A DNA stretch of 44,905 nucleotides, taken from the NCBI GenBank assembly GCA_031272085.1, contig JAISUN010000127.1, forward strand, positions 1-44,905, written 5' to 3'. A program made the translations under genes and the position numbers. Of the stretch, positions 8,852 through 38,974 are shown piece by piece (positions within the stretch are counted from its first letter, which is position 1; each line of letters begins with the position of its first letter). The notes under the pieces are model-generated. The model was not told where the DNA came from. It ran no database searches and saw only the letters and a list, made by a program, of their open reading frames with translations. This DNA is from Dysgonamonadaceae bacterium (GTDB lineage: Bacteria > Bacteroidota > Bacteroidia > Bacteroidales > Azobacteroidaceae).

Positions 8852-10225
8852 ATGAAGAAAATTATTTCGGTATTCAGTCTTCTGCTTGTTTTCTGCAATC
8901 TTGTTGCGGAAGACGGCAACGCGCTCGTTTACAAAATAAATATCAACTCCGAAATCAACACTACATCGCGCCTGTACCTGCAAAAAGGCCTGAAAGAGGC
9001 CAAAACGATGAATGCCGATGCGGTTCTGCTCCACCTCAATACTTACGGAGGCGCGGTTGTGGACGCCGATTCTATGCGGTCGGCCATACTTTACAGTCCG
9101 ATTCCGGTCAGCGTTTTTATCGACAACAATGCCGCTTCGGCAGGGGCTTTGATAGCGATTGCCTGCAAAAATATCTATATGCGCGAAGGGGCGAATATAG
9201 GCGCGGCAACGGTTGTGAGCGGGCAAACCGGCGAGGCGATGCCCGACAAATACCAGTCGTATATGCGCTCGATAATCCGTTCTACGGCCGAAGCGCACGG
9301 CAAAAAAACGGAAATTATTGACGGCGACACGATAGAAAAATGGATTCGCGACCCGCAAATAGCGGAAGCAATGGTGGACGAGCGGATTTTCGTTCCAAAC
9401 GTCATAGATTCCGGCAAAGTGCTGACCCTGACGGCTAACGAGGCCGTCAAACTCGGCTTCTGCGAAGGAATTGCCGAAACCGAAAGCGAGGTTATCCAAA
9501 AAATGGGATACACAAATTATACTACCGCCGAATTCCGCCCAAGTTTCGCCGACACATTGAAGGGATTTTTGATGAATCCGGCATTTCAGGCCGTTTTGAT
9601 AATGATTATCGTAGCGGGGATATATTTTGAACTGCAAACTCCCGGAATCGGCTTCCCGACGTTGGCCGCCGTAATTGCAGCCGTGCTGTACTTCACTCCG
9701 CTTTATATCGACGGATTGGTGCAAAACTGGGAAATTGTGATTTTTATCATAGGAATTGGGCTGCTTTTGGTTGAAATATTTGTCATTCCGGGCTTCGGAA
9801 TAACCGGCGTCAGCGGGATAATCTGCATTGCGGCGGGCCTGATTTTCGCGCTTTTGGACAACGATTTGTTCACTTTCCGCGAAGTAAGGACGCCGAATAT
9901 TTCCCGTTCCATACTGACTGTCGTTTCGGGGATGTTTCTGGGATTTGCGCTTATCCTCTGGCTCTCGTCGCGGATTGGCGAAAAAGGAATGTTCCGCAAA
10001 ATAGCGCTTACCGCCGACTTGGAAAACGCCGCAAGCGAAGACCCCGCCGGCCATCTGCTTGCCGGCAAAACCGGACGGGCTGCAACAGTTCTTCGTCCGG
10101 CAGGTAAAGTCGTGATTGACAACGAATTATACGATGCCGTTTCAAATTTCGGCTATATCGAAAGCGGAGCGGAAGTGCGTGTCGTAAAGTTTGAAAATAT
10201 GCAAATTTACGTGGAAAAAATATGA
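8852..10225 (+). CDS. nfeD: NfeD long-form membrane protein with ClpP-class serine protease domain
   Basis: This protein has 457 residues. A signal peptide (1-20) precedes a ClpP/SppA-like periplasmic protease domain with the Ser-Lys dyad at Ser96 (DNNAASAGALIAI) and Lys133 (PDKYQSYMRS), matching the pattern of archaeal and bacterial NfeD1b proteases. Several membrane segments follow (AVLIMIIVAGIYF, IGFPTLAAVIAAVLYF, EIVIFIIGIGLLLVEIF, GIICIAAGLIFALL, MFLGFALILWL), then a soluble OB-fold NfeD C-terminus (LLAGKTGRAATVLRPAGKVV, ending VRVVKFENMQIYVEKI). These proteins are thought to handle membrane proteins and associate with SPFH/stomatin partners; no SPFH gene follows here. Instead its TGA overlaps the ATG of a restriction-methylase. 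Confidence 0.9.
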   Translation: MKKIISVFSLLLVFCNLVAEDGNALVYKININSEINTTSRLYLQKGLKEAKTMNADAVLLHLNTYGGAVVDADSMRSAILYSPIPVSVFIDNNAASAGALIAIACKNIYMREGANIGAATVVSGQTGEAMPDKYQSYMRSIIRSTAEAHGKKTEIIDGDTIEKWIRDPQIAEAMVDERIFVPNVIDSGKVLTLTANEAVKLGFCEGIAETESEVIQKMGYTNYTTAEFRPSFADTLKGFLMNPAFQAVLIMIIVAGIYFELQTPGIGFPTLAAVIAAVLYFTPLYIDGLVQNWEIVIFIIGIGLLLVEIFVIPGFGITGVSGIICIAAGLIFALLDNDLFTFREVRTPNISRSILTVVSGMFLGFALILWLSSRIGEKGMFRKIALTADLENAASEDPAGHLLAGKTGRAATVLRPAGKVVIDNELYDAVSNFGYIESGAEVRVVKFENMQIYVEKI

Positions 10226-12699: not shown

Positions 12700-13926
12700 A
12701 TGAAATACATCATCATTCTTGGCGACGGAATGGCCGACGAGCCGATAGCCTCGCTCGGAAATAAAACCCCGCTGCAATACGCAAAAACGCCTGCTATGGA
12801 TAAATTGGCCGAAATGGGCTGTTCGGGACTGCTGAAAACCGTTCCCGACGGAATGCACCCCGGCAGCGAAGTTGCCAACCTTTCCGTTCTCGGTTACGCC
12901 CCCGAAAAGGTTCTCGAAGGACGAGGAACACTCGAAGCGGCAAGTATGGGAATAGAAGTTTTGCCCGGCGAAATGGCAATGCGATGCAACCTTATCTGCG
13001 TCGAAAACGGGCTGATAAAAAACCATTCGGCAGGCCATATTTCGACCGAAGAAGCGGCAGTTTTAATCCGCTTTTTGGACGAGAAACTCGGAAACGACCG
13101 CCTGCAACTGTTTCCCGGAGTTTCGTACCGACACGTGCTGAAACTGAAAGGCGGCGACAAACATCTCGCTTGCACCCCGCCCCACGACGTTCCGGGAGCG
13201 GATTTCCGCAGCCTGATGATTCAGGCGCAAAAGCCGGAAGCCCAAGCAACAGCCGACTATTTGAACTGCCTGATTCTCGAATCGCAGAAACTACTTGAAA
13301 ATCATCCAATTAACGTAAAACACAGAGCCGCCGGCAAAGACGCAGCAAATAGCATCTGGCCCTGGTCGCCGGGTTACAAACCCGCTATGCAAACGCTTTC
13401 GGAGCAATATCCGATAAAAACGGGCGCAGTGATTTCGGCCGTCGATTTGGTGCGCGGAATCGGCGTTTATGCAGGATTGAAAGTTATTGAGGTCGAGGGC
13501 GCAACCGGACTTTACGACACCAACTACGAGGGCAAGGCCGAAGCCGCCTTGGAAGCCCTGAAAACGGTAGATTTCCTGTATCTGCACGTCGAAGCCAGCG
13601 ACGAAGCCGGACACGAAGGCGACGAACAACTGAAAGTAAAAACAATAGAGTATCTCGACAAGCGGCTGCTGAAACGGATTATGGAAGAAACCGCCGAATG
13701 GCCGGAACCTGTCGCAATAGCGCTTTTGCCCGACCACCCTACCCCTTGCCGAATCCGCACTCACACAAATAAACCGGTGCCTTTCACGATTTACAGGCCG
13801 GGCGCAAAACCCGACGCAGTAAAGGTTTACGACGAGTTTTCGGCTGCAAACGGGAAGTACGGACTGATGAAAGGGGACGAGTTTATCCGGGAATTTCTTA
13901 CTCCAACAACAAGCCAGCCAAAATAA
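12700..13926 (+). CDS. apgM: Cofactor-independent phosphoglycerate mutase, archaeal (ApgM) type
   Basis: This 408-residue protein belongs to the alkaline-phosphatase-superfamily ApgM branch. ILGDGMADEP at 7-14 carries the metal ligand Asp9, PDGMHPGSEVANLSVLGY holds the phospho-acceptor Ser56, and later motifs are DFLYLHVEASDEAGHEGD and ALLPDHPTPC, the remaining metal-site aspartates and histidines. It interconverts 3- and 2-phosphoglycerate in glycolysis and gluconeogenesis. Many Bacteroidota copies are annotated with a homoserine-kinase alternative label, which the sequence alone does not exclude. It starts 3 bases after the restriction-methylase stop, in one operon with nfeD. Its last 29 bases overlap the end of the convergent GH28-GH105 gene and no terminator hairpin is visible. 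Confidence 0.92.
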   Translation: MKYIIILGDGMADEPIASLGNKTPLQYAKTPAMDKLAEMGCSGLLKTVPDGMHPGSEVANLSVLGYAPEKVLEGRGTLEAASMGIEVLPGEMAMRCNLICVENGLIKNHSAGHISTEEAAVLIRFLDEKLGNDRLQLFPGVSYRHVLKLKGGDKHLACTPPHDVPGADFRSLMIQAQKPEAQATADYLNCLILESQKLLENHPINVKHRAAGKDAANSIWPWSPGYKPAMQTLSEQYPIKTGAVISAVDLVRGIGVYAGLKVIEVEGATGLYDTNYEGKAEAALEALKTVDFLYLHVEASDEAGHEGDEQLKVKTIEYLDKRLLKRIMEETAEWPEPVAIALLPDHPTPCRIRTHTNKPVPFTIYRPGAKPDAVKVYDEFSAANGKYGLMKGDEFIREFLTPTTSQPK

Positions 13927-16627
13927 ACGGGCCTACGCCTTTGGGGTCGTTGTCTTTTTTCCTCTCGTTGACGTAATATTCGTAAGAACCGTCGCGATAA
14001 GGATTTCCGCCAAGTCCCGCTACGGCGCAGCAATTCGTAAGCGAAACCGTGCCGTCGGAATTTTCCTTCACAAAAGCCTTAACATACTGGCTGTAAGCCG
14101 TTTTTGCTTTTGCAAGATAAGAAGCGTCGAGCCAGCCGTTTTTTGCGCCCTTTGCCCAGGCGTAAATGAACATTGCCGAGCCGGTCGCCTCAATATAATT
14201 GCCCTTGTCCCCTACCCTGTCCGTAACCTGATACCACATTCCGGTTTTTGGGTCGCGGAATTTTTCGAGCGAGGCCGAAAGCCGCTTCAAAATATCTATC
14301 ACTTCGGCGCGGCGGGGATGTTTTTCGGGGATAAATTCCAAACAATCAACCATTGCCATCATATACCAGCCAATGCTGCGCGACCAGAAATTTGGCGAAG
14401 TTCCCGTTTCGGGATTTGCCCACCGCTGCTCGCGACTCTCGTCCCAGCCGTGATAATACAAGCCCGTTTTCGCGTCGTAAGTATGAGAAGCCACAAGCGT
14501 AATTTGGCGTATAACTTCGTCATACAGAGCCGATTCCTTAAATACGGAAGCATATTGGGCAAGGAATGGCGAGGCCATATAAATTCCGTCGAGCCACATT
14601 TGCGAAGGATATATTTGCTTGTGCCAGAAGCCTTTATCTGTTGTACGAGGCTGTTTTTTTATCTGTTCGCGAAGCAAATTCAGGGCATTTTTATATTTTT
14701 CAGCCTTTGTTTCGGCATAAAACGGGAAAATCAGGCGGCCTGCGTTAATCATATCGAGATTGTAGTCTGTCGGCCTGTAAGTCAGGATTTTAGTCCCATT
14801 ATCAAGCAACATTGTGTCGAGATAGGATTTCACGTAATTGTAATATTTCCGGTCGCCGGTTTGCTGAAAAAGTTTGTAAATAGCCATCAGTTCGAGGCCG
14901 TGAACATAATCCCATTTCGGGGCGCGGGCGCCGTCGAGCATCCATGATTCGGGATAGCGTTTCATCTCTGAATCAGTCATTTGCACGTAAGTTTTTGCAA
15001 CTTTTACCGATTTCAGATTTGCCGGAAGATTGATTTTTTCGTTTCGTTCACCGCTGATTTTGGCTTCCGAAGCGGAATTTGAAGTATTGAAATCCTCAAT
15101 TTTCAGGTTTTTGACGTTATTGAGCAGCAAAGCGGGGCCTTTTTCGGGAAATACCGATACATTGCGGAATACGATATTTTTCGATTCCGAAAGTTCCACT
15201 CCGGTTTGCGAAGTGATATATGCGTTTTCGACATTGATTCCGTCGATGTTCATTTCGGGTAAACCGTTGAAAAACATTGCTCTGCGGGCATTTCGGGAAA
15301 CAATATTTTTGATGTGTATATTTCGGAAAGCCGGAGTTTTTTCGGAAACGGCGGGAATAACCTCGTCAACGGGAGTTGAATCGTCGTCGTCAAGCGCTTC
15401 CACAGCCGATTTGCCACCGTAATAAAGGTCGAAAAGCAGGGATTCGGTAACAATATCGAACATACTGATATTTTCGACAAAAATATTTTCGACCAGACCG
15501 CCGCGCCCGCGGGTGCTTTTGAAGCGCAAACCCACGTCGGTACCGAGAAATTCGCAGTTGCTGACCGCAATATTTCGCACTCCGCCCGACATTTCGCTGC
15601 CGACCACAAAACCGCCGTGAGCCTTGAAAACCTTGCAGTTATCGACAATCATATTTTCGGTTGGCCGTCCGCGTTTGCGCCCGTTTTCGTCCTTGCCCGA
15701 TTTCAGGCAAATAGCGTCGTCGCCAACGTCGAAAGTAGAATTTACGACTATTACATTTTTGCAGGATTCCACGTCGAGGCCGTCGCCGTTCTGGGCAAAC
15801 GAAGGATTGCGGGCAAAAATGCCGTCGATAATCAGGTTTTCGCACATCAGCGGATGAATATTCCAACTTGGGGAGTTTTCAAACAGAACTCCTTGCAGCA
15901 GAACGTTTTTGCAATTTATGAAACTGACCATTACCGGACGCAGGAAATCCTTGATTTCGTTCCATTGCTCGTCGTTGAGCGTTCCGTTTGGAACGTTGAA
16001 ATTCTGGGCGCTCAAACTGTCGCCTTTCAGGGCGCCTTTCGAGGGAAGCCAGTAATTATCGCCGCGCAGCACGCCGCCGGAGCGAACCTGTTCAGCCCAA
16101 TGCCGGGCTGTTACCTTATCTTTTTTCAGCGGCCGCCAAGCCTCGCCGGAACCGTTTATTGCGCCTTCGCCGGTAATGGCGATATTTACAAGATTTCGGC
16201 CTGAAATGGGCGACTGGCAGCGTTTTGTTTCCAAACCTTCAAACGAAGTTTCGACGAGCGGATATGCGTCGAAGTCGCTTGTGAAGAGTATCAGAGCGCC
16301 TTTTTCGAGATGAAGGTTTATGTTGGATTGGAAAACTATCGGACCGGTAAACCACACTCCAAAAGGCACTACGAGCGTTCCGCCGCCTTGCGCCGAAAGG
16401 CTTTTCATTGCGCTGTTGAAGGCTTCCGTATTGAGGGTTGAGCCGTCGCCAACGCCTCCAAAGTCGGTAATAGACTTTTGCGTTGGCGGAAAAACAGGCT
16501 TTTGCACTTCCGACATCTTGAAAGGCAGGTTTTCGTACAGGTAAGCGTAGGAATATTTTTCCTGACCGGAGGCCGAAACGATGAAAGCGGATAAAATCGC
16601 AGGCAGCAAAATACGTTTAAATAACAT
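13898..16627 (-). CDS. GH28 polygalacturonase fused to GH105 unsaturated galacturonyl hydrolase
   Basis: A 909-residue two-enzyme fusion. After a signal peptide (to about residue 22), residues 45-520 form a GH28 beta-helix: SITDFGGVGDG, catalytic NGDGLD (Asp282/Asp285), GDDAICLKSG (Asp303, Asp304), AHGGFVVGSE (His337) and LRFKSTRGRGG (Arg368, Lys370). Residues from about 545 form a GH105 (alpha/alpha)6 barrel: WDYVHGLELMAIY, the catalytic QMWLDGIYMASPF with Asp680, TGLYYHGWDES and WSRSIGWYMMAMVD. GH28 hydrolyses galacturonan; GH105 removes the unsaturated uronate left by pectate lyases. No T9SS tag or lipobox is present, so the protein should be periplasmic. Each half has its key residues, so both look active. 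Last gene of the locus, overlapping apgM tail to tail. Confidence 0.93.
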   Translation of the reverse strand: MLFKRILLPAILSAFIVSASGQEKYSYAYLYENLPFKMSEVQKPVFPPTQKSITDFGGVGDGSTLNTEAFNSAMKSLSAQGGGTLVVPFGVWFTGPIVFQSNINLHLEKGALILFTSDFDAYPLVETSFEGLETKRCQSPISGRNLVNIAITGEGAINGSGEAWRPLKKDKVTARHWAEQVRSGGVLRGDNYWLPSKGALKGDSLSAQNFNVPNGTLNDEQWNEIKDFLRPVMVSFINCKNVLLQGVLFENSPSWNIHPLMCENLIIDGIFARNPSFAQNGDGLDVESCKNVIVVNSTFDVGDDAICLKSGKDENGRKRGRPTENMIVDNCKVFKAHGGFVVGSEMSGGVRNIAVSNCEFLGTDVGLRFKSTRGRGGLVENIFVENISMFDIVTESLLFDLYYGGKSAVEALDDDDSTPVDEVIPAVSEKTPAFRNIHIKNIVSRNARRAMFFNGLPEMNIDGINVENAYITSQTGVELSESKNIVFRNVSVFPEKGPALLLNNVKNLKIEDFNTSNSASEAKISGERNEKINLPANLKSVKVAKTYVQMTDSEMKRYPESWMLDGARAPKWDYVHGLELMAIYKLFQQTGDRKYYNYVKSYLDTMLLDNGTKILTYRPTDYNLDMINAGRLIFPFYAETKAEKYKNALNLLREQIKKQPRTTDKGFWHKQIYPSQMWLDGIYMASPFLAQYASVFKESALYDEVIRQITLVASHTYDAKTGLYYHGWDESREQRWANPETGTSPNFWSRSIGWYMMAMVDCLEFIPEKHPRRAEVIDILKRLSASLEKFRDPKTGMWYQVTDRVGDKGNYIEATGSAMFIYAWAKGAKNGWLDASYLAKAKTAYSQYVKAFVKENSDGTVSLTNCCAVAGLGGNPYRDGSYEYYVNERKKDNDPKGVGPFILAGLLLE

Positions 16628-20160: not shown

Positions 20161-23100
20161 TTAAAAATTAATATTAAGGCCGAAAACTGCCTGCTTCGAC
20201 AGCGGAAATTCGTAAGAGCCGCCGCGTTCGGGGTCGTAATTGTCTATTCCGCTGAAAGTGAAGAAGTTTTTCAAGGAAGCATAAACATTAGCGCCGCTGA
20301 TTCCGATACCTTTCAAAAGGCCTTTCGGCAAATTGTAATTCAAAGTTATGTCTTTGATTTTCAGATAATCGGCTTTTTCGTATTGCAGAGCGGTGGCGTA
20401 AGTCGAGTAAGTAGAGGTTGCCGTTCCCGACAAGCCCGGGCTTGGGAAACGCGCACCTGTGTTGCTGGGCGTCCAATAATCCAAATCAGCCCAGTTTGCG
20501 CCGTCGTAATAAATCTGGTTGTTGAACGAATAAGAAATAATTCCGCCAAGGCGGGCATAAAGCAATACCGACAACGAAAGATTTTTGTACGAGAAAGTGT
20601 TGCTCATGCCAAAAAGATGCTTCGGCGAGCGGTTGTAAACTTTTTTATCGTTTTCGTCGATAACTCCGTCGCCGTTCTGGTCAACAACTTTAACCGTTCC
20701 GGGTTGTCCGTAAGCCGAAAGAGGCGCGGTGAAAGGCGTCGTCGGATGGCTTGCGTTCCAGTCGGCTACAAACTTGTCGTATTCGCCTACATTCCAGCAT
20801 CCGTCGGTTTCGTAATCGTAATAGATGGAAACGGGTTGTCCTACAATCTGGCCGGTTCTGCCCGAAATATTCTGTTTCAGGCCGTCGGAAAGCGCGACAA
20901 CTTCGTCGTACATTGTGGAATAACTCCAATTTATGTCGTATGAAAAAGTTTTTGTTTTAACGACCAGAGTGTTCAGCGCGATTTCAAGGCCGTGTCCTTT
21001 GGTTTCGCCCACGTTTGACAAAACGGTCGGGAAAACGGACGAAGCCGGCAAAGCGCGGAGGTAAAGCAGGTCGGAAGTATGGCTCAAATAATAGTCGATG
21101 CTTCCGTTCACGCGGCCGCCGAAGAGGCCGAAATCAAGGCCTAAATCCCAGGCGCGGGTAGTTTCCCATTTCAGGTCGGTATTTCCCATTTGGCTCGGGA
21201 CTTTTCCTACCACGTTTGAGCCGAGATAATAATAAATATTGTCGGGGCTTAACTGCGACAAAGTCATATAGGCGTCAACGGCAGCATTACCCGAAACGCC
21301 CCACGAAACACGGGCTTTCAGGTTGCTCAACCAGTCTTTCGTGTTTTCCATAAAACTTTCTTCGCTGATACGCCAAGCCGCCGCCAAAGACGGGAAATAT
21401 CCCCATTTGTGTCCGGGCGAAAGCGTGGACGAACCGTCGGCACGCATAGAAGCCTGCAAAAGGTATTTTTCGTCAAATTTGTAGTTCAAGCGCCCAAAAT
21501 AAGAGAGCATTGCAGTTTTTGTGTAACCGCTTGTAGTTTTGGGGCTTGCAATTTTCGACAAATCGTAATACAGATTTTTGAAATAATGTTCCTGTCCGGC
21601 GTCGCCCTCGGTCAAAGACCATTCATCGACGTCCTGCCACATTTCGTGGCCGACCATCGCTGTAACGTCGTGTTTTGAACCGTCGAAATTTGTATTGTAC
21701 GACAAAACATTGTTCCAAGTATATTTAACCGATTTGTCGTATTCCTGCGACATTGTGGAAGTTTTTCCCGACTGGAAACGCGCTACGCTGTTGTAGTCGG
21801 CATAGATTCCGGTGCGGGCATTTCTCAACTGCGGGGCAAAAGTCGTCTTGAAATTCATTCCTTTTACAGGGGTTAATTCCAAATAAACATTGCCGAACAT
21901 ACGGTTCGATTCCACCTGATTGACATAGGCATTTTCAACCTCGTCGGCCAAAGGATTCACGTGCGAAACATAACGCGGGTTGGGCGTCATAATCATTTCG
22001 CCTGACGAATCGTAAGGATGAGTGATGGAGGTCATTTTCAAAGCCGTGCTGAAAACGCTGTTATACCGGCGGTTTTGTGTGCGGTAGGAGTACATAATGT
22101 TTCCGCCTACTTTGAAATAATTGTTGATTTTGTGGTCAACATTCAATCTCACGTTGTAGCGGTTCAGATTGTCGCTTTTCATTATTCCCTCTTCGTCCAT
22201 TGCGCCGACCGAAAGATTGAAAGTCGTTTTCTCGTTTCCGCCAGAAACAGAGGCAACATAATTTTGCGTCATTCCGTTTTGCAGAATCACGTCGAGCCAG
22301 TCGGTATATGAGCCGTTGTTGTAAATGTCCATTTCCGTCAAGTCCGTCGTGATGTTGTAAGTCAAAACATCGGCTGCCGTAACGCTGCTTGTACCCCAGT
22401 TGCCCGATATCAAATCGTTGGCGTAATTGGTTGCGTCAATGTACATCTGCACCTGCTTTTCGCCGTATTTGATTTCGGGAATGTGAGTAGGCGAATTGAT
22501 TGATACAAAGGAATTTAGATTTACCTTTGTCCGGCCTGCGGCTCCGCGTTTGGTAGTGATGAGAATCACGCCGTTAGCGCCGCGCGTTCCGTAGATAGCG
22601 GTCGAAGCAGCGTCTTTCAGCACTTCCATCGATTCGATGTCTGTTGCATTAAGGTCGATAGTCGAGCCGTATTCGATTCCGTCAACCAGAATCAGCGGGC
22701 TGTTGCTGCCGACGATAGAGCGGTTTCCGCGCAAGGTAATGTTCAGGCCTCCGCCTGCCTGTCCGTCGGACTGTGTAATGTCAAGTCCGGGGATTTTTGC
22801 TTGCATTGCCTGCATTGCGTTGCTCGATGAAACCTGTTCAATGTCAGTCGATTTTACAGAGGCGACAGAGCCGGTCAAATCGCGGCGTTTCATTGTGCCG
22901 TAACCGACTACAACCACTTCGTCGAGAGCCTGTAAATCCTCTTGAAGCGTTATGTTCACGCTTGTTTGCTGGCCTACGGCCACTTCCTGCGCTACATAAC
23001 CAATGTAAGTGAAAACGAGCCTCGAATTTGCGTTCAGGTTATTAACCGTGAAACGCCCGTTGCTATCGGTTATCGAGCCGTTGGAGTTATTGCCCTTTTC

Positions 23101-23244
23101 GGTAACACTAACTCCCAGCATCGGTTCGCCGGCCGCGTCGGTAACTGTTCCCGACACGGCGCGAACCTGTCCAAAAGATTGCAGGCAAGCCATGCTCAAC
23201 GCTGCGAGCAGAAATACCTGACAGATACACTTTTTCAGATTCAT
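20161..23244 (-). CDS. SusC/RagA-family TonB-linked outer-membrane transporter (pair 1)
   Basis: The 1027-residue protein has a signal peptide (1-26), a carboxypeptidase-D regulatory-like domain (about 28-103, VSGTVTDAAGEPMLGVSV), a TonB box and motif LDEVVVVGYGT at 108-117, a plug domain (DLTGSVASV to GVILITTKRG) and a 22-strand-type barrel ending in FGLNINF with the C-terminal Phe. It imports glycan fragments through the outer membrane using TonB energy. No N-terminal STN domain is present, so no anti-sigma signalling role is expected. It lies 58 bases after the beta-helix lipoprotein gene and 18 bases before its SusD partner. Confidence 0.96.
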   Translation of the reverse strand: MNLKKCICQVFLLAALSMACLQSFGQVRAVSGTVTDAAGEPMLGVSVTEKGNNSNGSITDSNGRFTVNNLNANSRLVFTYIGYVAQEVAVGQQTSVNITLQEDLQALDEVVVVGYGTMKRRDLTGSVASVKSTDIEQVSSSNAMQAMQAKIPGLDITQSDGQAGGGLNITLRGNRSIVGSNSPLILVDGIEYGSTIDLNATDIESMEVLKDAASTAIYGTRGANGVILITTKRGAAGRTKVNLNSFVSINSPTHIPEIKYGEKQVQMYIDATNYANDLISGNWGTSSVTAADVLTYNITTDLTEMDIYNNGSYTDWLDVILQNGMTQNYVASVSGGNEKTTFNLSVGAMDEEGIMKSDNLNRYNVRLNVDHKINNYFKVGGNIMYSYRTQNRRYNSVFSTALKMTSITHPYDSSGEMIMTPNPRYVSHVNPLADEVENAYVNQVESNRMFGNVYLELTPVKGMNFKTTFAPQLRNARTGIYADYNSVARFQSGKTSTMSQEYDKSVKYTWNNVLSYNTNFDGSKHDVTAMVGHEMWQDVDEWSLTEGDAGQEHYFKNLYYDLSKIASPKTTSGYTKTAMLSYFGRLNYKFDEKYLLQASMRADGSSTLSPGHKWGYFPSLAAAWRISEESFMENTKDWLSNLKARVSWGVSGNAAVDAYMTLSQLSPDNIYYYLGSNVVGKVPSQMGNTDLKWETTRAWDLGLDFGLFGGRVNGSIDYYLSHTSDLLYLRALPASSVFPTVLSNVGETKGHGLEIALNTLVVKTKTFSYDINWSYSTMYDEVVALSDGLKQNISGRTGQIVGQPVSIYYDYETDGCWNVGEYDKFVADWNASHPTTPFTAPLSAYGQPGTVKVVDQNGDGVIDENDKKVYNRSPKHLFGMSNTFSYKNLSLSVLLYARLGGIISYSFNNQIYYDGANWADLDYWTPSNTGARFPSPGLSGTATSTYSTYATALQYEKADYLKIKDITLNYNLPKGLLKGIGISGANVYASLKNFFTFSGIDNYDPERGGSYEFPLSKQAVFGLNINF

Positions 23245-26861: not shown

Positions 26862-29800
26862 TTAAAATGTTAAATTAAGACCAAAGACAACTGATTTGGC
26901 ACGCGGGTAAGATGAAAAATCCACACCCGGAGTTAATTGCGATTTGCGGCGGGTCGATACTTCGGGGTCGAATCCGCTGTAATTTGTCCACAAAGCCAAA
27001 TTGTAAGCCGAGCAGTAAACCCGCAAATTCTGAATTTTCAACTTGCTTATAACCGCTTTTGGAACGGTATAACCCAAAGTTAAAGTATTCAGACGCAGGA
27101 AAGAACCGTCTTCCACATAATAGTCGGAAAATACATAATTTGCCACGTAAGGCGACCAAGTTGTCGTCGTCGCGTTCATTTCCGCAAGTTTTACGGGGTC
27201 GTTTACCAGAGTTCCGGTAGCAACATCGAGGTCAGTCCAGCGTTTGCCCGACTCCATATCTGTAATCATATTGCGGAAAGTATATTTGTGCGTTTGGGTA
27301 TAATCCATTTTATTGGCATTATACACGTCGTTTCCGATTGAATAGTTGAAATTCACGCCAAGGTCGAATCCGTAAGCGTTGGCATTGACCGTAAAACCGC
27401 CGATAAGATTAGGATTTGCATTTCCGATAACGGTTTTATCCTCGTCGCTGCCGTATTTTACAACGCCGTCGCCGTCCAAATCCTGCAATTTCATTTTACC
27501 CGGACGAAGGTCGCCGACTACTGCGCTCGAATTGACAACTCCGTCTTTCAAAATCCATTTTCCGGTGGAAGAATTATATCCCTCGAAATCGTCAACGGTG
27601 TACATTCCGTCGGATTTGTAGCCCCACATTTGGCCTACCGCTCCGCCAACGAGTATTGCATAATCGTTGTAAACGCCGCCCGAACCGCTTCCGAAAGCGT
27701 CGGTATGTTCGTAGAAATCGCCTCTTTCGCCCAAATCAATGATTTTGTTTTCGTTATGTCCTACATTGAAACTGAAAGAAAGTCCGTAGTCCTTTTTTTG
27801 AAGCGCAATCCAGTTTAAAGTCAATTCAGCGCCCTGATTTTGGGTAGAACCCTGGTTTTTGTATTTATTCTGATAGCCTGTTCCCGATTGCAAAACCAGC
27901 AATAAAAGGTCTTTCGTAGTATTGCGGTAAGCGTCGATAGTCGCTGAAAAACGACCGCTGAACAGCGATAAATCAAGACCGACGTTTCTGGTAATGGTGG
28001 TTTCCCATTTCAAATTGGGATTGGCCATCGTTCCCGAAGGCGCCCAGTATGAAGCAAAACCCGACAACCACGATGTAGTCTTGGTTTCGTAAAGTTGGGT
28101 AATCAAGCCCGAAGGAATATTGTTGTTTCCTGCCGTTCCGTAAGAAAGGCGGAGTTTCAGGTCATTGAGCCAGCCGTGCGCCCCGTCCATCCAAGGTTCT
28201 GCGCTGATGCGCCATGCAGCCGAAGCGGAGGGGAAATAACCCCAGCGGTTTTCGTCCGAAAACTTGGAAGAACCGTCGGCGCGTAATGTTGCGCTCAACA
28301 GGTATTTATTCAAATAATCGTAATTCAAACGACCGAAGAACGACAAAATCTTGTCGTCCGGCGAATAAGAATTGGAAAACAAAATACGCGAACCGTCGTC
28401 GTGATTTTGCAAAGCCATTGCCTGGTCAAGCGTGAAACTTTCATCCAGACCGTCAACTTCCGAAGATTTTGTAATGTTCTTTGTTACAGAAACTTCGTGG
28501 CCGGCCATAATAGAAAGATGATGCGCTTCGGGCAACACGCCCTTAAAATCGTAAGAAAGCGTGTTGGCATTCCTCAACGTGTTGGCGTTTTTGTCGGTGA
28601 AAATAATAGCCGGTTTATTGGTCGGCACCGTATTTTGCTGAACAAAATAAGTTGTCAGGCCGTAGAAACGGTTATCGTTAGATGTGGACAAATTGTATCC
28701 GATTTCGGAACGGAAAGTCAAATTGTCGATAAGTTCCCAGTTAAACGCTCCGTTGAGATTCAGCACGTTGCGCACCTGATAGCGGTCGTTGTCGTTAATT
28801 GACAAAATCGGGTCGTACAGGTTGGCTGCTGCATCGGTATCGTCGTCGCTCGACAGTGTGCCGACAATAGGTATCGGACTGTAAATCATTGCATTGCGAA
28901 GACGGCCTTCTGTTGTTGAGCCTTTTTCATTTCCGCCGTCATTTACGCCACTACCGTTGATTCTGGTTTGCGACCAGCGAGCCGAAAAGTCCAATCCAAC
29001 GCGCTTTGTCGGTTTGTTATTCAATTTAAAAGCGAGGTTGTCGCGCGAAAATTTCGAGCCGTACATAATCGCTTTTTCGTCGTAGCGGGTGTAGTTGAAC
29101 GAATATTTCGTCTGGTCGGAGCCGCCTGCGATATTCAGACTGTGATTGCTTGTGTGCCCTACCCGGCCGAAAGTCAGGTCGAGCCAGTCGTTTCCGGTAA
29201 AATTGCGGTACAAATCAATATCGTCGTAGTTGCCGAGCCGCGAAGTGTAACCCGAATTTACATCGTCGGGAGCCTTTGTCCAGTCGCCTTTCAACAGGGC
29301 TAATTCGTACTGCCAGAGCGCAAAATCGTAGGGTTCCAGCACATCCATACGCCTTGCAATCTGTTTTGGGCCGAAATATCCGTCGTAATTAACCCGCACT
29401 TTTCCGGAATCGCCCGATTTTGTAGTGATGATGATAACGCCGTTAGCGCCTCGCGAACCGTAAATAGCGGTTGAAGAAGCGTCTTTCAGCACGTCAATCG
29501 AAGCGATTTCGTTTGGCGAAATGTCGCTGATTGAACTTACCGGAAATCCATCGACAATGTACAGAGGCTCGTTCGACTGTGTGATAGAGCCGCCTCCGCG
29601 CACGCGAATCGTTATTTCCGCATCCGGCGAACCTTCGGCAGTCGTTACCTGAACGCCAGCCATACGTCCCGACAGCGCTTCCCCTATCGAAGCAACCGGC
29701 CGAGCCGTAATTTCTTTTGAACTAACGGAAGAAACTGCGCCCGTCAAATCGCGCTTTTTCATTGTGCCGTAGCCGATTACAACTACCTCGTCGAGGTCGG

Positions 29801-30110
29801 CTGCGTCGTCTTTCAGGGCAATGTTGAAAACATCGGTGTTGATGGGCAATTCCTGAGAAACGTAGCCAAGAAAGTCGATAACTAAAATTTTCCCGTCTTC
29901 GGGAACCGAAAGTTTAAACTTGCCTTCAATATCGGTCGAAACGCCAATGCTGGTGCCTTTTACGTGAACGCTTGCGCCGATTACAGGCTCGCCTGTCGCT
30001 GCCTCCGTTACTGTACCCGAAATATTCCTCCTTTGTGCGCTCATCGAGAGGCTGCAAAGAAGAAGCATTATCAGCAGTAAAATAGAGTGTTTTCCTGTCT
30101 TTTTAATCAT
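26862..30110 (-). CDS. SusC/RagA-family TonB-linked outer-membrane transporter (pair 2)
   Basis: The 1082-residue protein has a signal peptide (1-25), a carboxypeptidase-D regulatory-like domain (ISGTVTEAATGEPVIGASVH, about 30-100), a TonB motif LDEVVVIGYGT at 107-116, a plug (DLTGAVSSVSS to GVIIITTKSG) and a beta-barrel ending in VVFGLNLTF. It is an active importer of oligosaccharides. The plug and barrel differ clearly from the 20161-23244 transporter, so the two pairs are not a recent tandem duplication. It follows the small 222-residue protein gene by 29 bases and precedes its SusD by 21. Confidence 0.96.
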   Translation of the reverse strand: MIKKTGKHSILLLIMLLLCSLSMSAQRRNISGTVTEAATGEPVIGASVHVKGTSIGVSTDIEGKFKLSVPEDGKILVIDFLGYVSQELPINTDVFNIALKDDAADLDEVVVIGYGTMKKRDLTGAVSSVSSKEITARPVASIGEALSGRMAGVQVTTAEGSPDAEITIRVRGGGSITQSNEPLYIVDGFPVSSISDISPNEIASIDVLKDASSTAIYGSRGANGVIIITTKSGDSGKVRVNYDGYFGPKQIARRMDVLEPYDFALWQYELALLKGDWTKAPDDVNSGYTSRLGNYDDIDLYRNFTGNDWLDLTFGRVGHTSNHSLNIAGGSDQTKYSFNYTRYDEKAIMYGSKFSRDNLAFKLNNKPTKRVGLDFSARWSQTRINGSGVNDGGNEKGSTTEGRLRNAMIYSPIPIVGTLSSDDDTDAAANLYDPILSINDNDRYQVRNVLNLNGAFNWELIDNLTFRSEIGYNLSTSNDNRFYGLTTYFVQQNTVPTNKPAIIFTDKNANTLRNANTLSYDFKGVLPEAHHLSIMAGHEVSVTKNITKSSEVDGLDESFTLDQAMALQNHDDGSRILFSNSYSPDDKILSFFGRLNYDYLNKYLLSATLRADGSSKFSDENRWGYFPSASAAWRISAEPWMDGAHGWLNDLKLRLSYGTAGNNNIPSGLITQLYETKTTSWLSGFASYWAPSGTMANPNLKWETTITRNVGLDLSLFSGRFSATIDAYRNTTKDLLLLVLQSGTGYQNKYKNQGSTQNQGAELTLNWIALQKKDYGLSFSFNVGHNENKIIDLGERGDFYEHTDAFGSGSGGVYNDYAILVGGAVGQMWGYKSDGMYTVDDFEGYNSSTGKWILKDGVVNSSAVVGDLRPGKMKLQDLDGDGVVKYGSDEDKTVIGNANPNLIGGFTVNANAYGFDLGVNFNYSIGNDVYNANKMDYTQTHKYTFRNMITDMESGKRWTDLDVATGTLVNDPVKLAEMNATTTTWSPYVANYVFSDYYVEDGSFLRLNTLTLGYTVPKAVISKLKIQNLRVYCSAYNLALWTNYSGFDPEVSTRRKSQLTPGVDFSSYPRAKSVVFGLNLTF

Positions 30111-30841: not shown

Positions 30842-32485
30842 TTAAATTTTAATTTTCAATGTTTTACATAATCCGTTTCGTCCTTCGAGGGTAATTCTCA
30901 CAAGGTAAATGCCCTGTGGAACACCTGAAAGATTAAGGCTGTCTGCGTCTTTTGCCGAATAAATTTTTACTCCTGCCGCAGAATAAACGTCAATTTGCTT
31001 AACCCGCTTGTCTGTAATTACTTTCAGCATTTTAGCGGAGTTTACGTAACAGGTTATTTTTTCTTCGTTCAAAGACACGCTCTCAATCGCAGTGATATTA
31101 TCTTGCACTTGCGCTTCGGTAATCGCGGAAACGAGGCTGTTTAGATAAACTTCAAGCAGAGTGTAGCCCTCTTCATTTATATCTGTTGCCTGTTTTCCGG
31201 GGAAATGCGCATCCAACCAGCCGTCGGGAATGCCGTCGCCGTCGGAATCGGAAGGAGCGGAAAGGGAATTATACGCCGGCCAGCCGCCAACGTCGGATTG
31301 AGAATCTATCAAGCCTTTGACGCTTCCGTTGCTCCCCGTATATGTGTATGTACTGTCGTGCACTTCGCGGGCGATGCGTGTATCGACTGCATCCCGCGCC
31401 AAAGATGCGCCTGCATAAGTCAATACTTTTTCGTAAGCATTTGCCGCAGTGTGGGTTGTAACGGCAGGAACTTCAAAAGGAACTGCTGATTTTAATTCGT
31501 TTTTATCTTTTGACGAGGGATTAGGCGTGATTCCCTGCCAGTTATCGTTGGTAACGGCGGCGCTTCCGCACATATAATTTCCATTTACATAAAACTTTCC
31601 CCAAATTCCGGCCGTTTGAGAATTGGAGCCGTCGTCGGCATTAGGCTGAAATATCCGCGCCCTATTTGAAGAGGCCGCGCCCGGCTTGTAATAATTGTTA
31701 ATGAAATTATAACTGCCGCCTTCGCCCGCATAGCCGCTGTTTGCGCCCCAATTATAAATTACGTTGTTGCGGAAATCTACTAATTCAAGGTCAGGCCGAT
31801 TGGTATATCTACTGCCACACATGCGCGGATTCCGGCTGTCGTGATGAGCCAGCAAATTGTGATGAAAACTTGCCGTATGGCCGCCCCAAATTCCGCCGTA
31901 ACCGTGTTTGCCCTTGGGATGAATGGAGTTGCGCATACTTTCGGAAAGTATGCACCATTGCATGGTAAAATTGGTATTATCGTAAAATGAGCCGCACTCG
32001 TCGATGCTCCAACTCATTGAACAATGGTCGATTATGATGTTTTGCTGATTCCGTCCCCAAATGGCGTCTTCCTGAACATTGGAAGTCGATTTATCTCTGT
32101 CGCCCAATCTGAAACGCAAATATCTGATAATTACATTGCTTGCTGAAACTTGAACAGTAAAATTTTTCAGGCATATTCCGTCGCCCGGAGCCGATTGACC
32201 GGCTATTGTAAGGTCGCCTTTGGTAATGTTGAGAGCGCTTTGCAGTTCGATAATCCCGGAAACTTTAAATAAAATTGTACGCGCTCCGCTCTGGTTGATT
32301 GCCCAACGAAACGTGCCTTCGGTGTTGGCGTCGCCAAGGGAAGTTACGTAAATAACGCGTCCTCCGCGGCCTCCGGTAGTGTATGCTCCGCCCCCTTCCG
32401 CACCGGGAAATGCCGGGGTTTGAGCAAAGGTTAAACTGTTTGTTAATAACGCAATAAAAAATGATATTAATGTTTGTTTATTCAT
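30842..32485 (-). CDS. Pectate lyase, PL1 family, with T9SS type A sorting domain
   Basis: This 547-residue protein starts with a signal peptide ([21 protein letters not shown]) and a PL1 beta-helix: [69 protein letters not shown] with the expected catalytic Arg. A calcium-binding repeat ([11 protein letters not shown]) follows. The last 80 residues are a T9SS type A tag: [37 protein letters not shown] and the tail KTLKIKI. It should act outside the cell or on its surface, making the first cut in homogalacturonan. It is the first gene of the nine-gene locus, downstream of the promoter boxes at 32508-32572, and is paired in function with the untagged PL1 at 16656-18095. Confidence 0.92.
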
Positions 32486-34101: not shown

Positions 34102-36129
34102 TTATTTTTCAAGTTGCAGCACTACCGCCGACCGTGCAGGGATGTAAAGTTTCAGCCATTCCTTTTTTTCGCCCTCGTAGAGCGGGTCGTGAACGGTAAA
34201 GTGGTCGAGCGAATCGTCCGAAAGGCCGAAGCCGCCAAAAGCGAGATTGTCGGTATTCAAAACCACTTTGTATTTGCCCGGCGGAACCAAAAATCCATAG
34301 TCGGCAAACGATTTTTCGGGGTTAAAATTGAACACAAATACTAAATTTTCGCGTCGATATGCCAAAATTTGGTCGCCTTCGTTGTCCCAGACTTTATAAA
34401 TTGTCGATTTTTGATAATCTTTTATCCCGCCAATCAAGTGAATCATAGCCTTGTCGAAATCGCCCAGAAATTTATATTTAAGTTCCGGATTATCAACAAG
34501 ATACCACTGGCGGCGAGCATATTTGTACGACCATCCGTTGCCTTCGCGCGGGAAATCTATCCATTCTGGATGGCCAAATTCGTTGCCCATAAAGTTGAGG
34601 TAAGCGCCGTTGATTGTAGAAGCCGTAACGAGGCGAATCATCTTGTGCAGCGCGATTCCGCGGTCAACAGCCATATTGCGGTCGCCAACCGACATGTGCC
34701 AGTACATTTCGGAATCTATCAGGCGGAAAATTATCGTTTTGTCGCCAACCAGCGCCTGGTCGTGGCTTTCGGCGTAACTGACCGTTTTTTCGTCGGCGCG
34801 GCGGTTGGTCGTTTCCCACCAAATGCCGGATACAGGCCAATCCTGGTCTTTCCGTTCCTTGATAATTTTTATCCAATAATCGGGAATATTCATCGCCATC
34901 CGGTAGTCGAAGCCGTAGCCGCCGTTCTTGATTGGAGCGGCCAAACCGGGCATTCCGCTGACCTCTTCGGCAATGGTAATCGCTTTTTTGCGGAACTCGT
35001 GAATCAGTTTGTTGGCCAAAGTGAGGTAAGTAATCGCGTCGCCGTCCTGATTTCCGTTGTAATAATCCCCATAATTTGAAAAACCTTCGCCCAAACCGTG
35101 GCTGTAATAGAGCATCGAAGTAACTCCGTCGAAACGGAATCCATCAAAATGATATTCATCGAGCCAGTATTTGCAGTTTGACAACAGAAAATGCAAAACT
35201 TCATTTTTTCCATAATCAAAACAGAGCGAATCCCATGCCGGATGTTCGCGCCGTCCGCCTCCGTGAAAATATTGAGTATATGAGCCGTCGAAGCGGCCAA
35301 GGCCTTCTACTTCGTTCTTAACTGCGTGAGAATGAACAATATCCATTATGACTGCAATTCCCATTTCGTGAGCGGCGTCTATCAGTTCTTTCAGTTCTTC
35401 GGGAGTGCCGAAGCGCGAAGATGCGGCGAAAAAACTCGATACGTGGTAGCCAAACGAGCCATAATAAGGGTGTTCCTGAATGGCCATAATCTGGATGCAG
35501 TTGTATCCGTCGGCCTTTATCCGTGGCAAAACATTTTGGCGAAATTCGACATACGTGCCGACTTTTTCCTCATATCCCGCCATTCCGATATGACATTCGT
35601 AAATCAGCAGCGGAGCGGTATTTGGGGTAAATGTTTTCTTTTTGAATTTATAAGGATTTTCGGGATTCCAGACTTGTGCGCTGAAAATCTTGGTATTAGC
35701 GTCCTGAACAACGCGCTGCGCCCATGCCGGAATGCGTTCGCCCGAACCGCCGTTCCAATGCACTTTCAGTTTGTATAAATCATTATGTTTTAAGGCATTA
35801 TCAGGTAATTCTATCTCAAATATTCCATTTTCGATACGATGGAGCCGGTATTCTTCCTTTTCCTGCCAGCCGTTGAAATCGCCAATCAGGAAAATATCAG
35901 AAGCATTTGGCGCCCATTCGCGAAAAATCCAGCCTTTTTCGGTAACGTGGAGTCCGAAATACAGGTATCCGCATGCGAAATCGCAAAGCGAAATTTGCCC
36001 GTTTTGTGTCAATTCCTTTTCCTTGCGCAAATAGTATTCGTAACGCCCTTCAATAGCGACGCTGAAAGGTTCGAGCCAGGGGTCGTTCTTGATTAATCCA
36101 AGAGTTTTCTTGTCATATTTTGTTTTCAT
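34102..36129 (-). CDS. glgB: 1,4-alpha-glucan branching enzyme, eukaryotic-like (GH13_8 type)
   Basis: The 675-residue enzyme starts LGLIKNDPWLEPFSVAIEGR, then a CBM48-type domain (GWIFREWAPNASDIFLIGDF) and a GH13 barrel: YHFDGFRFDGVTSMLYYSHG with nucleophile Asp334, TIAEEVSGMPGLAAP with acid Glu388, and YAESHDQALVGDKT. Start, length and motifs match the GH13_8 branch that includes plant and animal branching enzymes, rather than the GH13_9 bacterial GlgB. It makes alpha-1,6 branches in glycogen. The stop is 16 bases before uxaA, which gives an odd pair of glycogen synthesis and uronate catabolism. The ATG is followed by a 105-base AT-rich gap upstream with no clear promoter. Confidence 0.95.
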   Translation of the reverse strand: MKTKYDKKTLGLIKNDPWLEPFSVAIEGRYEYYLRKEKELTQNGQISLCDFACGYLYFGLHVTEKGWIFREWAPNASDIFLIGDFNGWQEKEEYRLHRIENGIFEIELPDNALKHNDLYKLKVHWNGGSGERIPAWAQRVVQDANTKIFSAQVWNPENPYKFKKKTFTPNTAPLLIYECHIGMAGYEEKVGTYVEFRQNVLPRIKADGYNCIQIMAIQEHPYYGSFGYHVSSFFAASSRFGTPEELKELIDAAHEMGIAVIMDIVHSHAVKNEVEGLGRFDGSYTQYFHGGGRREHPAWDSLCFDYGKNEVLHFLLSNCKYWLDEYHFDGFRFDGVTSMLYYSHGLGEGFSNYGDYYNGNQDGDAITYLTLANKLIHEFRKKAITIAEEVSGMPGLAAPIKNGGYGFDYRMAMNIPDYWIKIIKERKDQDWPVSGIWWETTNRRADEKTVSYAESHDQALVGDKTIIFRLIDSEMYWHMSVGDRNMAVDRGIALHKMIRLVTASTINGAYLNFMGNEFGHPEWIDFPREGNGWSYKYARRQWYLVDNPELKYKFLGDFDKAMIHLIGGIKDYQKSTIYKVWDNEGDQILAYRRENLVFVFNFNPEKSFADYGFLVPPGKYKVVLNTDNLAFGGFGLSDDSLDHFTVHDPLYEGEKKEWLKLYIPARSAVVLQLEK

Positions 36130-36234: not shown

Positions 36235-37806
36235 TTAAAACAATTCGTTCAATACTGCAACTTCTGCGCCGTTCGGCTGCCGAATCCGCAGCAAATACGA
36301 CAAAGTCGGCGCAATCTCTACGGCGTTTACCGTCCGGAATATCTCGTTATGCTTGATATTTCCGCCTAAAAAGAACAGGGGCGAAAGCGCGGCGGTGCGG
36401 ACATAATTGCTGTTAACAGTTTGATTATCAGTTATTATTGTCCATCCGGGCTGAATTTTTAGATACAAATCGCCGCTCGTTGCCTTGTACATTCCACGCC
36501 GGAAACGCTCGCTCTGCCACGAATCGCCGAACAGCCACTGCTCCGACGGCACAACTTCCTGAACTCCGCTCAACCGCACCAAAAAATCAGAGGCTTTACG
36601 GATTACATCCTGACGGTCAAGTCCTTTATCCTCAATGAGTTTCTGATTCAGATAAATCTGATTTTCATAAAAACCTTTCGTCCAGTCGCCCGAACCGTAA
36701 ATAGCGGCTAAATACATATTTAACAGTGCTATACAGCGCGACGGATAAAATTCACCCGCCGGATTGAAGCCTTCGGGAAGTTTCGACCAAGCGTCGTAAT
36801 ATCCGCTGCCGGTCAGGACTACAAGCGCATTTTGCAAGCCGACTTTCGAGTCAATCAGAGCGAGCAGGCGTTCAATTTCCTTGTCCAAACGATAGTAAGT
36901 ATCCTGTATTTCCCAACTGAAACTTCCGGCTGCCGCGTCATATTCGTATTCGCCTGCATAATAGGTAATTGCGAGAAAATCTGGATTCCCGCGCTTTCCA
37001 AAGTCGGCATACTCAAAAAATTTTGAAGCCATATCGGTTATCTCGCTGTTAATCAGGGGCGACTGTTTGATTCTCAAAAACCTGTTCATGTCCGCTTTTG
37101 AAAATGTATGCCGAAACGAACTAAAACTTCGAGAATACGAAAACGCGCTGTACGAGCGTAAAGCAGGCGTCCATTCGTCTTTGCCGTCGAATGTCTGCGA
37201 GGCGTTGTAGCGGTCGATGTACCAAGGAATATTTTTGTAGTAAGTCGTTGTCGCCCAGTGGCCTGTGTAATTGTCAAGCCAAAAAGCGGCGTCGGCGTAT
37301 TTTCCGGCGGAAATAATTGCTTCTTCGGCATTGGGAGCGATGGCGTAAATGTCTGAATATCCGCTCGATGCAATTTTTAATTCGTCGGTTATCGTCGAAC
37401 TCATTATTGCCAAAGGCGAAAATCTGTCGGATGTATAATTTCCGATATAATCTTTATCGTAAAGGATGGATGTTTCCCTAATTGCCTCAAAATCATAGCG
37501 TTTGCTGCCTGTAATGCCGTGAACATTCGGGTATGCGCCGGTAAAAAGCGTCGCCATCGAAGAGGCATTATCTATCGAAGTAAATCCAAAATCGACATTA
37601 TGATACACTAATCCGTTGTTCATCAAGCGTTTAAATCCTTTTTCGCCAAAAGTCGGACTGAAATATTGCAGATAATCGCCGCGCAACTGCTCAACAACCA
37701 CAAACACAAGCAGTTTCGGCGTCTGCTTCTCGACCTGCGCAAAGGCGGAAACAGAAATCAAAAGCGCAAAAAAGGCCGCAAAAAATCTATTTTTTTTGTT
37801 TAACAT
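36235..37806 (-). CDS. Alkaline-phosphatase-superfamily protein lacking the catalytic residues (pseudo-phosphatase)
   Basis: A 523-residue exported protein, signal peptide to about residue 24. The fold marks of PafA/nucleotide pyrophosphatase-type alkaline phosphatases are present: KLLVFVVVEQLRGDYLQYF, TLFTGAYPNVHGITG, DTYYRLDKEIERLLALID and ALVVLTGSG. Aligned by eye with PafA-like enzymes, the first metal Asp is Glu39, the nucleophile Thr is Asn80, the D-x-x-x-H pair (STDYVGH type) is Tyr282 and Glu286, and the DH pair in LTADHG is Ser334-Gly335. A downstream metal His is Asn. The frame is intact and begins 20 bases inside the DUF4105 gene, so it is not a decaying gene but an apparent pseudoenzyme. 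It may bind a phosphoester ligand or partner. Confidence 0.78.
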   Translation of the reverse strand: MLNKKNRFFAAFFALLISVSAFAQVEKQTPKLLVFVVVEQLRGDYLQYFSPTFGEKGFKRLMNNGLVYHNVDFGFTSIDNASSMATLFTGAYPNVHGITGSKRYDFEAIRETSILYDKDYIGNYTSDRFSPLAIMSSTITDELKIASSGYSDIYAIAPNAEEAIISAGKYADAAFWLDNYTGHWATTTYYKNIPWYIDRYNASQTFDGKDEWTPALRSYSAFSYSRSFSSFRHTFSKADMNRFLRIKQSPLINSEITDMASKFFEYADFGKRGNPDFLAITYYAGEYEYDAAAGSFSWEIQDTYYRLDKEIERLLALIDSKVGLQNALVVLTGSGYYDAWSKLPEGFNPAGEFYPSRCIALLNMYLAAIYGSGDWTKGFYENQIYLNQKLIEDKGLDRQDVIRKASDFLVRLSGVQEVVPSEQWLFGDSWQSERFRRGMYKATSGDLYLKIQPGWTIITDNQTVNSNYVRTAALSPLFFLGGNIKHNEIFRTVNAVEIAPTLSYLLRIRQPNGAEVAVLNELF

Positions 37807-38974
37807 AATACTTTAAATAATATGCAGAACTAATTAATAAACAAGCAATTAATGGGATACAGGCAATGTTGAGTTCCTGTGGAATCCAATGCCAAGCAAG
37901 CAAAAGAACCGCCAAAACCGCGAAATTTAATGCGTGGTACCGGACAAAAACCGGCGAACGCCGTTTAAGCATAAATCCCGCAAAGCCAAGTAGTTGCAAA
38001 GGATGTATCCACAGCAGATTCCAGTTGGGAAAAGTGCAGGGATGAACCGAAAAAAATGCCACAAATGCGACTAAACATCCGCCAAGCCCGGTAATAAGAA
38101 ACAGAATCGAAAGCCACCACAGCCGTTTTTTCCGAATCAGTCCCCAAATTATAGAAACCGCAACTATCAAAAACAATATAATTCCAACAAACAAAGGACT
38201 TTGTAAGATATTTTCAAACTTATTTCCAACATTTTTTCCATCCGGTTGAGAGGCTTCGAGCAAAGTGCGTTTGGAAATAACAAGAGGCCGTCGGCTGCCG
38301 CCGCCTGACAAAACCGTCGCTCCGTCGAAGGCCATCATCAGCCTTTCGGGCAAAAACTGCGATGAACGCCCGCAAATAAGCGAATCGGCGCCGCTGCCTA
38401 TCAAAAAATCTATCCCAAATTCGAGCCAGGGATAAGCGTCGGTCAGCCCGTGAACTAAACGGCGGAATGTAAGTTCCTCATTCTGTTCAGGATATGCCAG
38501 TTCGCCTCCGCAATATTTTTCTACCAAATCGCGGGGACGCAGGGTGCAGTTATCAAAAAAATAATTGTAGCGGTACTCGATATTTTCAGGCTGCAAATTT
38601 TCATCCAAAGCATTAATTAGCAATAATTTAAGGCTGTCGGGAATAGCAATTTCCTGTTCTACGACAGTAGAATTTCCACGCCGGTAAGCATTGATGAAAT
38701 CCAGCATTGAAGCGGCAGACAGGAAATAATCGGTTTCGCCTTTAATAAAATGGTATAGAAAATTCGGGCGGTTGAAATCGAAAGTCCCCCAATTCAGCAC
38801 AATATCAAGCCCTTGCGATGGGTCGGCAATCCTCAAAGCGGTATGTCCGAAAACCGTATAAACCGCATTGGAACGCGGCATCACGGTCAGCAGGCTAACC
38901 TTTGCATTATCGTAATTTCCCGCTTTCGCAACAAAAAAACAGGAAATAAACAGGAAAAAAAATAATCGTTTCAT
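37787..38974 (-). CDS. DUF4105 / Lnb-like membrane protein (putative lipoprotein N-acylation-type thiol enzyme)
   Basis: A 395-residue protein: signal peptide (to about residue 18), a periplasmic domain with VYTVFGHTALRIADP (His44) and YNYFFDNCTLRPRDLVEKY (Cys143), then about five membrane helices from residue 260 (FVGIILFLIVAVSIIWGLI, LWWLSILFLITGLGGCL, LLWIHPLQLLGFAGF, YHALNFAVLAVLLLAW and a final one). The Cys-His arrangement is that of the DUF4105 family, now linked to the Bacteroides lipoprotein N-acyltransferase Lnb; recall of that link is from literature knowledge and not from this sequence. It acts in the inner membrane facing the periplasm. The last 20 bases overlap the pseudo-phosphatase start, so the two proteins are translationally coupled. 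Confidence 0.72.
   Translation of the reverse strand: MKRLFFFLFISCFFVAKAGNYDNAKVSLLTVMPRSNAVYTVFGHTALRIADPSQGLDIVLNWGTFDFNRPNFLYHFIKGETDYFLSAASMLDFINAYRRGNSTVVEQEIAIPDSLKLLLINALDENLQPENIEYRYNYFFDNCTLRPRDLVEKYCGGELAYPEQNEELTFRRLVHGLTDAYPWLEFGIDFLIGSGADSLICGRSSQFLPERLMMAFDGATVLSGGGSRRPLVISKRTLLEASQPDGKNVGNKFENILQSPLFVGIILFLIVAVSIIWGLIRKKRLWWLSILFLITGLGGCLVAFVAFFSVHPCTFPNWNLLWIHPLQLLGFAGFMLKRRSPVFVRYHALNFAVLAVLLLAWHWIPQELNIACIPLIACLLISSAYYLKYYVKQKK

Follow-up and report, generated by a model that had tools for sequence, protein, structure and literature searches.

Here, we observe that two overlapping genes in the window, a stretch of 44,905 nucleotides from a Dysgonamonadaceae bacterium (contig JAISUN010000127.1), encode Lnb, a membrane protein of the DUF4105 type, and an exported protein of the alkaline phosphatase fold that lacks the active site of its relative PafA and is termed pseudo-PafA in the following. 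The dead site is a property of the whole branch of PafA relatives found beside lnb (the linked branch), not a quirk of one genome, and pseudo-PafA is almost certainly non-catalytic. The two genes would represent the first members of a group that runs lnb - pseudo-pafA - secA in most named relatives, and a functional tie of pseudo-PafA to Lnb appears reasonably likely. All features are compiled in Table 1.

Table 1. Positions of the gene pair and its key residues in the window.
Feature	Position	Strand	Basis
Exported pseudo-PafA, alkaline phosphatase fold without active site, 523 aa	36235..37806	-	open frame, Pfam, alignment, model
Probable signal peptide of pseudo-PafA, residues 1-23, AFA then Gln24	37738..37806	-	hydrophobic stretch
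Glu39 of pseudo-PafA, at PafA Asp38	37690..37692	-	alignment
Asn80 of pseudo-PafA, at PafA nucleophile Thr79	37567..37569	-	alignment
Glu286 of pseudo-PafA, at PafA Asp305	36949..36951	-	alignment
Ser334-Gly335 of pseudo-PafA, at PafA Asp352-His353	36802..36807	-	alignment
Asn465-Ser466 of pseudo-PafA, at PafA His486	36409..36414	-	alignment
Lnb (DUF4105), 395 aa, N-terminal catalytic and C-terminal transmembrane domain	37787..38974	-	Pfam, model
Lnb His44	38843..38845	-	invariant in 44/44 rows
Lnb Cys143	38546..38548	-	invariant in 44/44 rows
20-base overlap of Lnb end and pseudo-PafA start	37787..37806	-	reading frames

Both frames are open and their overlap is as the preliminary description had given it. 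The third gene in line on the reverse strand, 105 bases past pseudo-pafA, encodes an enzyme of the glycogen-branching type (34102-36129) and not SecA. In a scan for promoters and terminators, signals were no commoner than in shuffles. Elsewhere, the window holds GH3 and GH9 genes and, on the reverse strand, a 909-aa protein joining GH28 and GH88 domains (13898-16627) as well as two TonB-dependent receptors with carboxypeptidase-regulatory-like domains (20161-23244 and 26862-30110). Two large open frames of 824 aa (10222-12696, forward strand) and 547 aa (30842-32485, reverse strand) have no Pfam match at E 0.001.

Fold, export and active site of pseudo-PafA

Pseudo-PafA belongs to the Pfam family Phosphodiest (5e-19), and its best relative of solved structure is PafA (5tj3, E 1.5e-43). 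Superposition of the structure model on PafA spans 480 residues at 28% identity, i.e., the PafA-type fold is whole. Such a superposition had been proposed as a check on the claim of an emptied metal site, and the claim withstands it. Against the NCBIfam profile of PafA, NF042991, the protein scores 284.7 bits, below the cut-off of 650. A hydrophobic stretch at residues 8-26 ending in AFAQ resembles a signal peptide, which had been described as intact, and Gln24 is present in 91 of the 95 linked-branch sequences.

We take D38, D305, H309, D352, H353 and H486 of PafA to be the ligands of its two zinc ions. According to the title of the mutant structure 5too, T79, N100, K162 and R164 are active-site residues; active-site terms were not found in PMC8812569 on PafA, nor residue names in our literature search. 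When aligned to PafA, the substitutions Glu39, Asn80, Glu286 and Ser334/Gly335, read by eye in the preliminary description, prove right (Table 1), while Tyr282 falls outside the ligand columns with phmmer and with MAFFT and is dropped as a ligand position. The late Asn reported there is N465 in the H486 column by phmmer and S466 by MAFFT; the absence of His thus holds under either aligner, the identity as Asn only under the first. N100, K162 and R164 are lost as well (S101, N159, E161). In total, the six presumed zinc ligands, the nucleophile and the three residues N100, K162 and R164 are all missing from the protein of the window.

The same losses are found throughout the linked branch, represented by an alignment of 95 sequences (the window, 14 from the survey of the order and 80 named loci). 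T79, K162, R164 and H353 are retained in none of them, D352 and H309 in one each, H486 in two, D305 in seven and N100 in 34; the D305 column carries Asn in 75. D38 is retained in 93 of 95, and with Glu at this position the window has given up even the last kept ligand. Over the seven ligand and nucleophile columns, one residue is left in 82 sequences, two in 11 and none in 2. As a control, the full set DTDHDHH is found in PafA, in four copies from the order and in all nine loci read outside the order, from 75 other genomes with a match. The losses go beyond chance, since they recur in relatives together with the same gene order. Proteins of this branch that are annotated as alkaline phosphatases are thus probably not enzymes.

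A second, unlinked branch of the order is degenerate in 25 of 25 sequences. None keeps more than four of the seven key residues, and the loss is partial (Asp352 in 13/25, His353 in 12/25). Such genes were read, e.g., at L082, L085, L091 and L100 (genomes G014, G093, G089 and G029), with several of the following as neighbours: transketolase, ychF, M14 carboxypeptidase, PcrB, phosphopantetheinyl transferase and gldD. At L098 (G010:C15), a degenerate PafA gene lies right behind the gene of Lnt; this genome encodes Lnb as well. In G089, G080 and G097, the distance between a PafA-like gene and Lnt is 5 to 18 kb. The idea that Lnt regularly accompanies the unlinked branch was rejected: the direct arrangement occurs only in G010 of the order sample, and in the phylum sample, inspected by eye, Lnt never lies within 20 kb of this branch.

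Lnb and the conserved gene order

Passages of two papers (PMC13103446 and PMC12994826, both citing the original description) present DUF4105/Lnb as the lipoprotein N-acyltransferase of Bacteroides, and the latter groups DUF4105 with TseH, Tox-Act1 and LRAT. The Lnb of the window matches Lnb_N with 67.9 bits (gathering threshold 22.2, E 1.1e-18) and 5TMH_Lnb with 130.8 bits (25.2, E 5.2e-38). Its score against NCBIfam NF051878, 343.3 bits (E 1.6e-102), lies under the equivalog cut-off of 550, and the protein is therefore placed in the Lnb domain family rather than called a proven equivalog. His44 and Cys143 are invariant in 20/20 and 44/44 alignment rows. The model (pLDDT 86.9) finds TseH (6v98) as its best, weak Foldseek match (E 0.012), in line with the grouping given in part of PMC12994826. 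A hydropathy scan of this Lnb finds only four hydrophobic stretches, and the model has five helices, one of them short, in the transmembrane domain.

Among 99 genomes of the order, 37 have only Lnb, 51 only Lnt, 10 both and one neither; Lnt matches were counted from 86 bits upwards, and two of them are partial. The two are largely mutually exclusive (Fisher p 8e-17, not corrected for shared ancestry). The genome of the window itself has only weak Lnt-domain matches (best E 1.4e-4). Judged from this distribution, Lnb would stand in for Lnt in genomes of the order.

Gene order was read in 80 named loci, the best 80 of 560 matches to the window, a sample that favours the window's own branch. Lnb lies directly upstream on the same strand in 68 of them. 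Of the remaining 12, six have too little sequence upstream (74 had room) and six are without Lnb, where a tblastn search of the locus found none either. The overlap, which the preliminary description had suggested looking for beside other DUF4105 genes, recurs in 38 of the 68 linked loci (median gap -4). SecA, identified by Pfam, is directly downstream in 67 of these best 80 of 560 matches. In the window's own family, 29 loci were read, with Lnb upstream in 22 and SecA downstream in 24. The pair thus adjoins in most named linked-branch loci, the opposite of a pair that is never adjacent, and together with a natural fusion this adjacency supports the proposed tie to Lnb.

The fusion, found in 1 of 47 Lnb genomes of the order (G041), is a single open frame of 924 aa that consists of Lnb_N, 5TMH_Lnb and Phosphodiest. 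A hydropathy scan reveals six hydrophobic stretches after the catalytic domain, the sixth (396-414) where the signal peptide sits. Five helices would end in the cytoplasm, and the sixth would return the second domain to the periplasm. As read from the sequence, this topology is compatible with a periplasmic pseudo-PafA domain.

Lnb and a PafA-like match occur together in 39 of the 99 genomes, adjacent or fused in 14 and apart in 25. The linkage was seen only within the window's own order; 148 other genomes of the phylum, inspected by eye, showed no adjacency. A PafA-like match is absent from 8 of the 47 Lnb genomes. In ten genomes without a first-pass match, nine of them with Lnb, a profile search retrieved a 20-bit fragment from one and nothing from the others; G032 and G073, two of the eight, lie outside this set of ten. 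G091 and G100, which belong to the ten and are of the window's genus (1.0-1.2 Mb, 99% complete), have Lnb and no PafA-like gene. Of the 51 genomes with Lnt only, 20 likewise carry a PafA-like match, including at least one active PafA (G006).

Constraint and origin of the linked branch

The nearest relative found is 61% identical, too far for dN/dS of the window itself. Constraint was therefore estimated from 13 hand-picked, non-independent close pairs of named relatives, without the window. In all 13, dN of pseudo-PafA is lower than dN of Lnb. The median dN/dS is 0.073 for pseudo-PafA, 0.135 for Lnb and 0.046 for SecA (9 pairs having SecA). Family-wide loss, a whole fold and strong constraint in close relatives agree with the earlier notion of a non-catalytic protein that is held by selection.

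Active PafA is basal in the tree built from 57 sequences; the 25 unlinked degenerate copies follow, and the 27 linked copies included form one clade (support 0.67). In the midpoint-rooted tree of 46 Lnb sequences, the 14 linked Lnbs fall within one clade of 18 (support 0.76). Its other four members come from G030 (PafA-like gene beside SecA, Lnb elsewhere), G004 (PafA-like gene elsewhere), and G068 and G091 (no such gene). Since linked copies cluster in both trees, a single origin of the linkage with occasional later loss is probable, with moderate tree support. The dead branch itself predates the linkage.

A candidate accessory of Lnb

We regard it as fairly probable that pseudo-PafA is a non-catalytic periplasmic accessory of Lnb. 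The inner-membrane Lnb, whose catalytic domain faces the periplasm, would N-acylate diacylated lipoproteins, a function taken from the literature. Pseudo-PafA would be exported to the periplasm with its PafA fold entire and without zinc-binding and phospho-enzyme residues. There it would most likely dock onto the periplasmic domain of Lnb and may hold or present a substrate, either the apolipoprotein or the phospholipid donor, presumably by surfaces other than the old pocket. Whether the protein is a physical subunit of the Lnb machine is a more doubtful matter. Equally tentative is the wider idea that two components carry out lipoprotein N-acylation in this order, in which case the dead PafA, under stronger constraint than the enzyme, would be the substrate-presenting periplasmic subunit of Lnb and would tie N-acylation to Sec export via the common gene group lnb - pseudo-pafA - secA. 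An obligatory partnership is counted against by the 8 of 47 Lnb genomes without the protein and by the unlinked dead branch, which also occurs in Lnt genomes. With SecA being about as faithful a neighbour, the same observations disfavour an exclusive partnership with Lnb.

The neighbourhood of lnb might instead be a group of envelope-biogenesis genes, in which pseudo-PafA has a part in Sec export or in some other process of the envelope. We consider this unlikely. It would account for the frequent adjacency of SecA, for the loci that retain SecA beside pseudo-PafA and miss an adjacent Lnb (3/80 named, 4/29 family loci and G030 at L063) and for a constraint close to that of SecA. However, the window and six of the 80 named loci, all with room, have Lnb and no adjoining SecA, the sole fusion is with Lnb, and a periplasmic protein has no direct access to SecA, which is cytosolic.

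The altered pocket of a non-catalytic sensor or binding protein might also hold a cation, e.g., an amine head group. The mean net charge of the ten active-site columns indeed becomes more acidic from active (-1.2, 5 sequences) via unlinked (-1.9, 25) to linked copies (-2.5, 95), with -3 in the window. Nevertheless, several pocket columns belong to the protein's most variable positions (variability percentiles: H309 97th, H486 92nd, N100 80th, T79 75th), unlike a binding site, and among the ten only D38 and a Gly at H353 are tightly kept. Such a pocket makes a simple ligand site less likely and favours a role for some other surface; the ligand binding envisaged earlier finds little or no support in the old pocket, and a cation site there is improbable. 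Residues specific to the linked branch include T125, E255, R357, N363, R507 and R509.

Retained catalysis or metal binding by relocated residues is very improbable. Asp38 and many near-invariant acidic residues could be cited in its favour, as could Cys358 (75/95) and His169 (69/95), but conservation exceeds 80% for none of the His and Cys residues of the linked branch, and the window carries Glu in the D38 column. A relocated metal site was rejected on these grounds, and the claim of lost ligands stands. Decay of the gene in a symbiont genome, to which its absence from some relatives, two reduced genomes among them, might point, is dismissed in view of the open frame, the signal peptide, most family invariants being kept, the strong constraint in relatives and a dead site common to the whole branch.

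The accessory reading matters since Lnb, an enzyme found in a major gut phylum, received its name only recently, and a dead-enzyme gene fixed beside lnb is a candidate for an accessory. Presumably, BT4363, BT4364, PG0515, PGN1459 and BF9343_0945 are locus tags of the gene pair. PGN_1459 appears as one line, 'unknown', in a ChIP-seq table of PMC3764172. The words phosphatase, SecA and operon are absent from PMC12994826. None of the parts is new in kind. In the literature searched, which excludes the original description of Lnb, titles and the beginnings of abstracts show no paper on the conserved pairing.

Compared with known systems, pseudo-PafA shares the whole fold, the export and the length with PafA (5tj3, NF042991). 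It differs by the missing catalytic and metal residues, a score under the NF042991 cut-off and the fixed position beside lnb. The unlinked degenerate branch of the order resembles the linked one in fold family and degenerate site, and differs in its partial loss and gene neighbourhood. The upstream protein has both Pfam domains, the His/Cys pair and the complementarity to Lnt in common with Lnb (NF051878), whereas its score is below the equivalog cut-off and its gene is overlapped by that of pseudo-PafA. Finally, a weak best fold match, TseH, and the published grouping link the Lnb model to the permuted NlpC/P60 enzymes TseH, Tox-Act1 and LRAT.
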